DNA of 64,000 nucleotides from Acidobacteriota bacterium (GTDB taxonomy: Bacteria > Acidobacteriota > Holophagae > Holophagales > Holophagaceae), in the NCBI GenBank assembly GCA_016195985.1, contig JACPYP010000030.1, forward strand, positions 1-64,000, given 5' to 3'. Each line of letters starts with the position of its first letter. The stretch's first letter is position 1. The notes beneath the pieces were generated by a model, which ran no database searches, was not told the origin of the DNA, and saw only the letters and a list, made by a program, of their open reading frames with translations. Shown piece by piece: positions 61,111 to 64,000 of the stretch. The position numbers and the translations under genes were made by a program.

Positions 61111-61551
61111 ATGGCCAAACCCGATCTGGACGACCTGGACCGCCGCCTCCTCGCGGAGCTGGGGGCCGACGCGCGCCTCACCCAGGTAGCTCTGGCCGCG
61201 CGGGTGGGCCTTTCGCGCTCGGCGGTGCAGGAGCGCCTCAAGCGCCTGGAGCGCGAGGGGGTCATCCTGGGCTACACCCTGCGCCTGGGCCTGGAGCCCC
61301 GCCCCGGGGTGCGGGCCTACTTGCTGGTGAAGGGCAGCGGGCCCAGCCACGAGCGGGCCGTGCGCCTGCTGGAGACCTTCCCCGAGGTGCGCGTAGCCGA
61401 TTCCGTGAGCGGCGACATCGACCTGGTGCTGCAGCTGGAAGGGCAGCGCCTGGAGGACCTCAACCGCGTGCGCGACGAGCTGGCCAAGCTTCCCGGCATT
61501 GCCTCCACCCAGACCCTGCTGGTGATGGCCCCCCGCTTCGACCGCCGCTGA
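61111..61551 (+). CDS. Lrp/AsnC-family transcriptional regulator
   Basis: This 146-residue protein has the Lrp winged helix (about 5-60). LDDLDRRLLAELGADARLT leads to the helix-turn-helix VALAARVGLSRSAVQERLKR. The RAM ligand-binding domain (about 65-140) has GVRAYLLVKGSG, the SGDIDLVLQLEG strand and a closing LPGIASTQTLLVM. It should form octamers that sense an amino acid. The neighbouring amine dehydrogenase lies far away, so the target is unknown. Confidence 0.93.
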   Translation: MAKPDLDDLDRRLLAELGADARLTQVALAARVGLSRSAVQERLKRLEREGVILGYTLRLGLEPRPGVRAYLLVKGSGPSHERAVRLLETFPEVRVADSVSGDIDLVLQLEGQRLEDLNRVRDELAKLPGIASTQTLLVMAPRFDRR

Positions 61552-61757: not shown

Positions 61758-61777
61758 TCCCGGTCGAATGACCGGGA
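61758..61777. repeat. Perfect 8-bp inverted repeat
   Basis: TCCCGGTC (61758-61765) and GACCGGGA (61770-61777) flank GAAT. It lies between the Lrp gene and the accessory operon. It could end Lrp transcription or mark the edge of the acquired segment; there is no U-run. Confidence 0.5.
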
Positions 61778-61800
61778 ACCACGCCTCTCATCCAGGCATT

Positions 61801-61838
61801 GTAAAGTGGACTGTAAAGCGTAAACTGGATTGTAAAGA
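61801..61838 (+). promoter_or_regulatory. 19-base tandem direct repeat before the TIGR04255 operon
   Basis: GTAAAGTGGACTGTAAAGC (61801-61819) is followed at once by GTAAACTGGATTGTAAAGA (61820-61838), identical at 16 of 19 positions. The GTAAA core occurs four times. It ends 6 bases before the operon's first ATG, so a bound protein would block transcription or translation start. The HTH protein of the operon is the obvious candidate binder. Confidence 0.72.
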
Positions 61839-61844
61839 GCCCCC

Positions 61845-62666
61845 ATGACTGCACCCTATCCCCACTACAAGCTCACCGAGGATCCGTTGGCCCTCGTGCT
61901 CTGCCAGGTCAGGTTCAGTCGGGTTCAGAAGATGCCTGATTACATTCCGGAAATCCAGGAACGCCTTCGGAAGGAAGGGTTCCCTGAGGATGCAAGCGTA
62001 CAGGTCGGGCGAATCCACTGGGAGATGGGGAAGCAACCTGAAACTACTCAGGTGCAGCACAGCGAGTTCCGATCCAAAGATGGTTGGTGGGGCATCGCGA
62101 TTAACGACGACAATCTCGCTCTTTTTACCACTCATTACGATCGATTTAACGGCTTTGGAGAACGCCTAGGCAACATCCTACGAGTAATCAACGAAGTGGT
62201 GGATCTGAGCCCCGGCTCGGTCACTCGGGTTGGGCTAAGGTACATCGACGTTGTGGTCCCAAAACCCGGCGAGACATGGAAGCTTTACCTTCACCCGGGC
62301 CTCCACGGTCCCGATGCGGACGCGTTCCCGGACAGCGCCCCATCCATGATGCAAGAACACTCAGGAAGGACTAATCACGGAACCATCACGGTTCGCATCT
62401 CTCAAAATAACCAGGGTATGGTGCTGCCTCAGGGAACATTAGTGAAGCCGATGGAGTTTCGTCAGACCTTCGATCCGAATCAACTCTTGACCTTGATAGA
62501 CACGGATCATTTTGTGGAAGGGAAGTGGGATTTCGACATCGCGTCAATCCTTGAGACCGTGGATGTACTGCATCAGGGATCAAACACTGTCTTCTTCAAC
62601 AGCCTGATAACGAAACATGCCCGCATGGCATGGGGAGCAGAAGATGTTGCAGACCGCAAACGCTGA
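61845..62666 (+). CDS. TIGR04255-family protein
   Basis: This 273-residue soluble protein has the opening of the sporadically distributed TIGR04255 family (YKLTEDPLALVLCQVRFS, where the family has P-L-x-x-V-x-x-Q-V-R-F). A central strand pair (WWGIAINDDNLALFTTHYD) and ITRVGLRYIDVVVP-like sequence follow, here SVTRVGLRYIDVVVPKPGE, and the end reads NSLITKHARMAWG. The family's biochemical role is unknown. It is patchily distributed and often sits with small HTH or unknown genes, as accessory systems do. Its last 23 bases overlap the next gene's start. Base composition is lower in GC than the core genes. Confidence 0.82.
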   Translation: MTAPYPHYKLTEDPLALVLCQVRFSRVQKMPDYIPEIQERLRKEGFPEDASVQVGRIHWEMGKQPETTQVQHSEFRSKDGWWGIAINDDNLALFTTHYDRFNGFGERLGNILRVINEVVDLSPGSVTRVGLRYIDVVVPKPGETWKLYLHPGLHGPDADAFPDSAPSMMQEHSGRTNHGTITVRISQNNQGMVLPQGTLVKPMEFRQTFDPNQLLTLIDTDHFVEGKWDFDIASILETVDVLHQGSNTVFFNSLITKHARMAWGAEDVADRKR

Positions 62667-63363
62667 AGCCTGCTTTCCCTCATTTGGGCTCATTCGGGGC
62701 ACTTCCGTAGGATTGGACCAATGGAGTGGCTCCATGCAGGCCCGACGGACCTCCTTGGGCACCGATACTCCTCTCGAAACGATTGCTCAGTGGTTGGGGT
62801 GGGAAGTACGTCGGCCCTACTCAGAAGCTTCCCTCGATCGTGCACCGGAAATCCAGGCTCTCTCCTTCTCGGCGGAGGTCATCGCATGTCTCATCTCCAA
62901 GGACCTTCCACATATCGTCTCCGCCAAACCACCGCTATCGTTCCAAGAGTTGGCGCGCCTCATGGCTATGCGACTCTCGATCAGTAAAACGGATCTGGCC
63001 ACCCGAGTCTTTCGTGTGAGCCGACCTACTGTCTACAACTGGATCGCAGGAAGTGAGCCAGACGACTCAAAGTCGCAGGAGCACCTTCGGATATTGGGGT
63101 CGATAGCCCATGAGATCTCTCGGAAAACGCCCCGCCCCCTCTATAGACGATTCGTCTACGAAGCCTTGCCAGGAGAGACAAAAAGCATTATCGAGCTTCT
63201 TGAAGGAGAATACTGGGATCAGGCCTTGCTAAGAGGGCTCTTTCTCAGGGCCAGGGAACTCACCGCACTACGCGATGAGCGTTTAGGCATACATGCTCGT
63301 CTGTCTTCTGAGGGAGAAGACGCCAACTATCACGACAATCTATTGAGTCTCGGGGGGGAGTGA
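62644..63363 (+). CDS. HTH-domain protein of the TIGR04255 operon
   Basis: This 239-residue protein starts inside the end of the previous gene; the ATG at 62644 has GGAGCAGAAG upstream. The middle contains a helix-turn-helix (about 116-145, MRLSISKTDLATRVFRVS then RPTVYNWIAG), like Xre or MerR-type recognition units. The N- and C-terminal parts are helical with no recognised motif. It may regulate its own operon through the 19-base repeats. The next gene begins 3 bases after its stop. Confidence 0.75.
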   Translation: MLQTANAEACFPSFGLIRGTSVGLDQWSGSMQARRTSLGTDTPLETIAQWLGWEVRRPYSEASLDRAPEIQALSFSAEVIACLISKDLPHIVSAKPPLSFQELARLMAMRLSISKTDLATRVFRVSRPTVYNWIAGSEPDDSKSQEHLRILGSIAHEISRKTPRPLYRRFVYEALPGETKSIIELLEGEYWDQALLRGLFLRARELTALRDERLGIHARLSSEGEDANYHDNLLSLGGE

Positions 63364-63366
63364 GGA

Positions 63367-64000
63367 ATGTCTGCGCCCAAATCCGTTCGCGACCACTGTC
63401 TGGCCGCAGGATGGATTCAAGGAGCTGTCCTCCGAGTCGAGGATGCATCCCTCGTTTACGACGCCGCCTCTGATGCTAAGCCTTCAGTTTCTAATAGCGA
63501 ACAAGATCGGCTACTCGTGCTCACGCAGGACTGTGACCTTGTTCATCACAGCCTGGAGGAGGAACCGTGGGTGGAGGTAGTTCCACTACGACCGATACGA
63601 ACATTCGAGAAAGACAAGCACAACGGACTTCTCCACGGGAAAAGCCCGCGACGGCTGGTTTTCCGCATCCCTAATAGCGCGCCAGAATGGTGGCAGATTG
63701 AAGTGAAAGATCGCTTTCGCTTCCCACGACAGGCCCTTCTTGGACGAACACCGGATCCTGATCGGAGCCTCCCCGTCTCTCTGGCAAAGGAGATCGCACG
63801 GTGGGTGTCCCGCAAATATACTCGTGCCGCGTTTGCTGACGAGTTCAACTACAGGCTTGAGACACAAAAGAAAGGTCTCGAACGCCTTTGGAAATCTGAT
63901 TCAGCAACAGCAATCAGCGGGATCTTCATCCAGGGGGCCCGGGAGGAATTGGCTGCCGATGAAACGTACCAAATCAAGGTATTGCTTGCCATCGGCCCGG
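63367..64000 (+). CDS. Unknown protein of the TIGR04255 operon, cut by the window edge
   Basis: An open frame of 211 codons runs from the ATG at 63367 to the end of the window without a stop. TGAGGA, three bases before the ATG, carries both the previous stop and the ribosome site. Recognisable features are RLLVLTQDCDLVHH (about 49-62), where the Cys/Asp/His cluster could bind metal, and a WVEVVPLRPI strand. The C-terminal visible part is helical with charged residues. I do not recognise a named family. The tight spacing shows it is the third gene of the operon. Confidence 0.8.
   Translation, partial: MSAPKSVRDHCLAAGWIQGAVLRVEDASLVYDAASDAKPSVSNSEQDRLLVLTQDCDLVHHSLEEEPWVEVVPLRPIRTFEKDKHNGLLHGKSPRRLVFRIPNSAPEWWQIEVKDRFRFPRQALLGRTPDPDRSLPVSLAKEIARWVSRKYTRAAFADEFNYRLETQKKGLERLWKSDSATAISGIFIQGAREELAADETYQIKVLLAIGP

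Follow-up and report, generated by a model that had tools for sequence, protein, structure and literature searches.

A three-gene operon behind direct repeats

A 64,000-base stretch of an Acidobacteriota genome (the window), which is the start of a 94.5-kb contig in a 4.26-Mb assembly, carries at its right-hand end three packed genes, g1, g2 and g3, that resemble toxin-antitoxin systems in layout and appear to form a three-part toxin-antitoxin or phage-defence unit of a new kind. The first gene, g1 (61845 to 62666, forward strand), encodes a 273-residue protein of the TIGR04255 family, with 135.7 bits against the NCBIfam model at a cut-off of 30 (E 2.4e-39). The second, g2 (forward strand, from an ATG at 62617 or 62644 to 63363), encodes an Xre-type helix-turn-helix (HTH) protein, which we propose to be both autorepressor and antitoxin. 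The third, g3, starts at 63367 on the same strand, crosses the window edge by 224 bases and ends at 64224 in the contig; the window holds 211 of the 285 residues of its product, the 'QDCD' protein and proposed effector. The GC content drops from about 0.66 to 0.545 across the trio.

Two 18-base tandem copies (61801 to 61818 and 61820 to 61837, 19 bases from start to start) precede g1. They correspond to an operator-like array of four directly repeated hexamers on the forward strand, TGTAAA, TGTAAA, CGTAAA and TGTAAA (61800 to 61836), spaced 12-7-12. The tandem repeat ends 7 bases, and the array 8 bases, ahead of the g1 start.

An earlier sequence-only reading had described three packed low-GC genes behind a tandem repeat, the first of them TIGR04255 and the third without a recognised family, and in this it was right. 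The 3-base gap that it gave between g2 and g3 is exact, and its 23-base overlap of g1 with g2 applies if g2 starts at 62644 (50 bases if it starts at 62617). It had placed a 19-base tandem repeat 6 bases before the first start codon: 19 bases is indeed the period, but the copies are 18 bases long and the distance to the ATG is 7 bases. Its HTH assignment for g2 held at the level of the family. In Pfam the window protein gave weak HTH matches alone (best E 0.012, below cut-off), whereas among 38 relatives at E 0.1 HTH_3 was found in 28 and an antitoxin Xre-like HTH model in 8. Where it had advised looking for the rest of the operon, to the right of 64,000, the contig supplied the end of g3 and no further operon gene.

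The trio is linked and diverges together

We searched plasmids and a phage collection by tblastn with g3 and g1, and found the order g1-g2-g3 in Gloeocapsa, Gloeocapsopsis, Pseudomonas, Vibrio, Klebsiella, Acinetobacter, Robbsia, Meiothermus, Paenarthrobacter, Mesorhizobium and Rhizobium. Of 15 plasmid TIGR04255 records, 14 had the trio, as established by a sequence check for 13 of the 14 and through annotation alone for H19; the record lacking it is a plasmid of Rhizobium sp. CB3060 (L014). A g3-seeded search yielded 80 loci (74 in species genomes, 6 in viral contigs). At 77 of these the complete trio runs in order along a single strand, its genes mostly overlapping or a few bases apart. Of the other three, L101 is undecidable with g3 at a contig end, L068 has a g3 without its first residues and no g1 or g2 that we could find, and L067 is considered in the Discussion. 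By record title, the loci come from Pseudomonadota, Acidobacteria, Cyanobacteria, Deinococcota, Desulfobacterota, Verrucomicrobia, Bacteroidota, Actinomycetota and Myxococcota; since many records are metagenome bins, individual labels could be mistaken. Pairwise distances agreed between the genes at the 69 loci with long enough genes (rho 0.80, 0.79 and 0.78; permutation maximum 0.23).

In the phylum of the window, TIGR04255 was found in 17 of 396 genomes, at 19 places. Besides the window, eight places scored at least 150 bits; seven of them have g2 and g3, and the eighth is on a cut contig. None of the ten weaker places had both g2 and g3. The QDCD protein was found in 1 of the 77 genomes of the window's family in a single-protein search, and a genome scan with the window's g3 alone returned no relative. 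No DNA match to the Klebsiella copy was found in E. coli.

Some individual loci deserve mention. In the Rhizobium sp. CB3060 plasmid, TIGR04255 lies beside multiubiquitin, ThiF and DUF6527 genes, with other genes downstream. A 207-kb record titled Acinetobacter phage (CAKLQF020000006.1, L008) is perhaps mislabelled, as the stretch resembles a bacterial chromosome; it has a DGQHR/methyltransferase region near the trio. At L114, a tRNA-Asn gene (L114:4918-4992) ends beside the cassette, whose g1 is short (160 residues), which suggests tRNA-linked integration.

A direct-repeat array precedes the trio in several phyla

The motif TGTMAA-N6-TGTMAA occurs once in the window and in 0 of 100 shuffles, and the four-site array occurs once in the whole assembly with 3 mismatches allowed; thus, it seems to serve this operon alone. 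Likewise spaced hexamers stand upstream of relatives from several phyla. At 97 trio loci, taken without deduplication, TGTMAA occurred 245 times on the coding strand and 12 times on the opposite strand within 200 bases upstream of g1, versus 9 and 3 times within the first 200 bases of g1 itself. The commonest spacings were 12 bases (98 times), 7 (38) and 19 (9). A pair at one of these distances was present at 75 of the 97 loci, and the exact 12-7-12 set with every hexamer perfect at 27. Removal of loci with similar g3 left 68, whose last 130 bases before g1 held 164 TGTMAA versus 7 on the opposite strand, with a pair at 50 of them. The 46 best arrays yield the consensus TGTCAA-N6-TGTAAAG-TGTCAA-N6-TGTCAA, and 0 of 97 mononucleotide-shuffled upstream regions matched the score of these 46.

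The 22 loci without a TGTMAA pair were enriched in a 12-base period (z 13.1; every other period from 7 to 32 was below z 2). Among the words repeated there, each present twice, are TGTGTAAT in Vibrio, CTTCACA in loci of the window's phylum and TTTCACTTTAC in Rhizobium. No TGTMAA pair was found at the nine tested of the ten TIGR04255 loci without the trio; their 12-base (z 2.1) and 10-base (z 3.7) periods were taken as small-set noise. An inverted-repeat operator was rejected as a common feature (10 of 92 loci at p < 0.05).

In g2, the recognition helix was of the RQ type at 67 of the 75 pair-bearing loci versus 8 of the 22 pair-less ones (p 2e-6), and at 42 of 50 versus 7 of 18 after deduplication (p 6e-4), kinship being ignored in both tests. 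Helix type tracks the hexamer word, with exceptions, as it should were g2 to bind the repeats. Judged by these comparisons, the tandem repeat belongs to the cassette as an operator-like element whose binding is predicted. Sequence comparison thus shows the trio to be a mobile and conserved unit of three genes that carries a cis signature of its own. A literature search covering titles and abstract openings returned no description of this cassette and no paper naming TIGR04255.

The N-terminal half of the QDCD protein has a toxin-like predicted fold

Neither the window's g3 product nor its 70 relatives matched anything above cut-off in Pfam or NCBIfam or anything strong in PADLOC, and none of the window proteins (g3 as its first 211 residues) matched PADLOC-DB 2.0.0 at E 1. 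Two candidate identities were set aside as weak and without PDB profile support: Csx3/Crn3 (2 of 70 proteins, best E 6.5e-4 in PADLOC and 0.0031 in NCBIfam) and TsaD (12 of 70, best E 2.3e-4).

The AlphaFold2 (AF2) model of a relative (L057), built with 70 sequences, had a mean pLDDT of 89 and a pTM of 0.70. All 50 matches listed for its residues 2-138 carry MazF, CcdB, Kid or similar toxin or mRNA-interferase titles, with Z up to 9.3 and an rmsd of 3.4 over 110/111 residues. The alignments overall had an rmsd of about 3-4 over about 95-118 residues, which is nearly the entire toxin chain. Foldseek gave a probability of 1.00 for the best MazF chains, and PemK-like proteins were among the best named matches in a viral library. 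ToxN was not among the fold matches listed, which excludes nothing. The invariant or near-invariant residues (L057 numbering) are W10-R11-Q12-G13, H42-D43-C44-D45, E53-P54, E57, K75, R78, K104, W129, R133-Y134-x-R136 and A138-F139-P140, with C44 and D45 invariant in all 70 sequences. From the model, the N-terminal half of the protein looks like a toxin-like fold with a conserved site of its own.

Among the 80 loci, g3 is broken with g1 and g2 open at L113 and L079 (frame changes), and at L118 and L112, where similarity stops after about residues 70-90 and 150-165, respectively. At L110 it is similarly short, but ends 58 bases before the contig end; at L114 g1 is short too; and at L025/L123 (wider phylum) g3 appears as two adjacent pieces. 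Because the search went by g3, broken copies should be undercounted, but the cases are still few.

Properties of the g2 and g1 proteins

As a profile against PDB, g2 matched the Cro/C1-type regulator CylR2 (E 2e-4), and the antitoxins HigA-2 and MbcA at just E 0.2. The protein has at least 180 residues at 78 of the 78 loci having it, a fusion with g1 (L062) counted. Its N-terminus carries a [GSA][TS]G (GTGG-type) motif in 60 of 84 proteins versus 15 expected, and is strongly hydrophobic in 17 of 84. This motif, often after the hydrophobic stretch, is unexplained in a DNA-binding protein. A C-terminal tail with an x-P motif was seen in 68 of 84 proteins, by a loose pattern given without a control.

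The AF2 model of the window's g1 (pLDDT 88) showed weak likeness to TBP and to phosphagen kinase catalytic domains, with matches near background (Z at most 8.6, rmsd 5.1). The residues invariant in 75 sequences include R132, E171, D219 and D221. No SecB match was found for this protein in Pfam at E 1. In Rugamonas sp. A1-17, g1 and g2 form one 414-residue frame (L062:5705-6988), in which TIGR04255 is joined directly to the HTH and the N-terminal segment of g2 is left out, judged by eye against L057.

Defence-gene families often flank the cassette

Of the 39 long-flanked loci that remained after deduplication we analyzed 37 (all but L117 and L118), taking two genes on each side of the trio, which gave 148 genes from a crude gene caller. 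As a control, we used 107 genes from five 20-kb stretches of two trio-bearing genomes and from positions 1-50,000 of the window (35 genes). At E 1e-15, the flanking genes matched 106 PADLOC families and the controls 2; these are families rather than genes, and several may come from the same gene. The 25 of the 106 that were listed include type I, III and IV restriction, Thoeris ThsB, Mza, SoFic, TmtA and candidate (PDC) systems. Pfam gave 160 families for the flanks, among which the 25 listed include integrases (4 of 148 genes), ResIII (3), Fic (2), ABC-3C CTD10 (2), AIPR, TniB and phage portal, and also ordinary families such as GGDEF and aconitase.

The sequence-only reading had suspected an accessory defence or toxin-antitoxin module, and had named two findings that would speak against it. 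The first, that the genes stand apart in relatives, is not usually the case, though weaker TIGR04255 relatives occur at ten places outside the trio; the second, that they are ubiquitous housekeeping genes, does not agree with their rarity in the family and phylum of the window. The clustering with defence genes that it had suggested checking was seen. Taken together, these results support an accessory defence or toxin-antitoxin module well on genomic grounds, its function being inferred.

The insertion site

The trio lies between an Lrp/AsnC-type gene (61111-61551) upstream and, beyond a 20-pair terminator-like stem (L002:8367-8410, that is 64367-64410), a gene on the opposite strand; from their sequences we take the two flanking genes to be lrp and gcvPB. 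Counting the one that holds the window, 11 of 47 genomes in the genus have this lrp; in 9 of the 10 other congeners it lies near gcvPB, with coding ends about 50-75 bases apart in five and about 0.8-1.2 kb apart in four. In the window the gap is 2.9 kb. In some congeners (L162, L165, L166 and L170) the gap holds other genes, by eye membrane-protease-like or esterase-like frames. Since the gap differs among congeners and holds other genes, the trio seems to have been inserted into a variable spot.

An inverted repeat with 8-base arms and a 4-base loop (61758 to 61777, no strand assigned) lies upstream of the operon and was matched in 1 of 60 shuffles. A sigma-70 promoter scan of the operon gave one match, on the other strand, which is no more than in shuffles. 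No Rfam family reached its gathering score in L002:5500-8450; the six sub-threshold matches all fall on the terminator stem.

Discussion

The linkage, the shared divergence, the operator-like array, the predicted fold and the defence neighbourhood, all computed here, lead us to a reading that we think somewhat probable: the cassette would be a mobile three-part module of toxin-antitoxin-like type that regulates itself and probably acts against phages, in which g3 is the effector, g2 the antitoxin and repressor, and g1 a partner or sensor. In the effector, a MazF/CcdB-like barrel bearing a conserved polar site of a new type (H/Q-D-C-D, E, K, R) would be joined to a second alpha/beta domain. The g2 protein would bind the direct repeats 12 bases apart before the operon, repress it, and keep g3 inactive, perhaps through its C-terminal tail. 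The TIGR04255 protein may act as a single unit with g2, as sensor or co-antitoxin, and infection or stress that disturbs g1/g2 would end repression and free g3. The natural g1-g2 fusion, the g3 copies broken beside open g1 and g2 while g2 keeps at least 180 residues wherever it is present, the tie of helix type to the hexamer pair, the lack of such pairs at TIGR04255 loci outside the trio and the insertion between lrp and gcvPB also speak for this reading. Toxicity, neutralisation, the identity of the repeat-binding protein, the trigger and the target are inferred.

Several observations weigh against it. A Z of 9.3 is little above 7-8, the typical level of the tool for models without a true relative; the best Foldseek E is just 7e-3, and unrelated folds appear from rank 15. 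Homology of g3 to MazF in sequence was not supported (hhalign probability 0.04% against 18 MazF sequences), no PemK or CcdB match was found in 70 g3 proteins at E 0.1, and the R-P / T-T signature of MazF has no evident counterpart in the g3 consensus, by eye only. By sequence, g3 falls outside the MazF and CcdB families, and a shared fold proves no function. The link of helix and operator has exceptions in both directions, since 8 of the 75 pair-bearing loci have another helix type and 8 of the 22 pair-less ones have the RQ type. The window itself is one of them, with the helix RPTVYNW and a TGTMAA array; its g2 also lacks the common GTGG segment (by the [GSA][TS]G pattern) and has a different tail. 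Locus L067 consists of g2 and g3 with g1 not found, so that g1 may not be essential. Finally, the defence comparison was made with controls unmatched in taxon.

The N-terminal segment of g2 could be read differently. In a phage- or stress-sensing switch, g3 would be no toxin but a regulator or processing enzyme of g2, which for example cuts or binds the hydrophobic/GTGG segment and releases g2. An invariant Cys and Asp in g3, the excess of the motif in g2 and the absence of the segment from the L062 fusion agree with this; but that fused protein still adjoins g3 though the segment is gone, and the N-terminal fold of g3 is like that of small toxins, with no known protease among the matches listed. 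We regard such a switch as unlikely. The cassette might also be an addiction or maintenance module of mobile elements without a defence role, its defence neighbours reflecting shared islands. Its presence on plasmids and viral contigs and the integrases in its flanks fit this, whereas in the window a solitary copy lies between genes of housekeeping type, on a contig that resembles a chromosome, an observation that excludes neither role; we consider this improbable. If anything still less probable is a defence system in which g1 is the enzyme and g3 an adaptor. The charged residues invariant in g1, its weak likeness to phosphagen-kinase catalytic domains and TBP, and the defence neighbourhood would be in line with it, but the fold matches of g1 are near background and L067 retains g2 and g3 without g1.

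The toxin-antitoxin-like reading can be compared with known systems. The cassette has the general type II toxin-antitoxin layout, with an adjacent Xre-type g2 and a repeat array at the operon start to which binding is predicted. It resembles MazEF and CcdAB in the predicted toxin fold of the N-terminal half of g3, the small adjacent DNA-binding gene and the operator-like repeats at the operon start. It differs from them in having no sequence similarity, an extra C-terminal domain in g3 and no visible MazF signature, in its Xre-type g2 with direct repeats, and in the third gene, TIGR04255; the MazF/CcdB fold itself was found on the predicted model of a relative only, and membership of the sequence families was not found. 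Tripartite toxin-antitoxin-chaperone (TAC) systems with a SecB-like chaperone, such as that of M. tuberculosis, have a toxin inhibited jointly by an antitoxin and a third protein. Like them, the cassette has three genes and a third protein proposed to act with the antitoxin, but its third gene is TIGR04255, without a SecB match in Pfam, and its proposed toxin differs. In type III toxin-antitoxin systems (ToxIN), ToxN has a MazF-like toxin fold and repeats lie upstream. The cassette shares upstream repeats and, by prediction, the fold, but its repeats are 6-7 bases long and lie just before g1, with no long RNA array.

Other TIGR04255 loci point to related arrangements. At L029, L032, L033 and L038, TIGR04255 is followed by a middle gene and a gene of HEPN fold, which gives a second kind of locus. 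These third genes matched Pfam HEPN at E 0.009-0.05 each, below cut-off, and as a profile matched a PDB HEPN structure at E 4e-7. Like the trio, these four loci have the g1 family first, then a middle gene and a gene of toxin-type fold; unlike it, they have no Xre gene that we could find, no TGTMAA pairs and another third gene. The idea that HEPN genes are tied to TIGR04255 was rejected, because just 4 of the 12 loci found with the HEPN profile have the two side by side, and it was these 4 from which the profile had been seeded. At L028:1471-3191 the architecture is intermediate: TIGR04255 stands with a third gene of QDCD type and a different middle gene, in which no HTH was detected. At L031 and L035, TIGR04255 stands with two small genes; a HicA-like identity of the third gene there was not used (Pfam E 0.038 in one, no PDB match). 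It is possible, although we find it doubtful, that TIGR04255 is the shared sensing or antitoxin-side part of modular three-gene immune or toxin systems that swap regulator and effector, and that the QDCD protein represents a new class of enzymes built on the MazF barrel. The swapped pairs would be Xre with the MazF-fold QDCD protein, the middle gene with the HEPN protein, and others.

These results offer a testable role for the TIGR04255 family. The cassette is widespread, and its cis signature of direct repeats spaced 12-7-12 eases its finding and annotation. Should it prove to be a toxin-antitoxin or abortive-infection system, both its toxin subfamily and its third component would be new.

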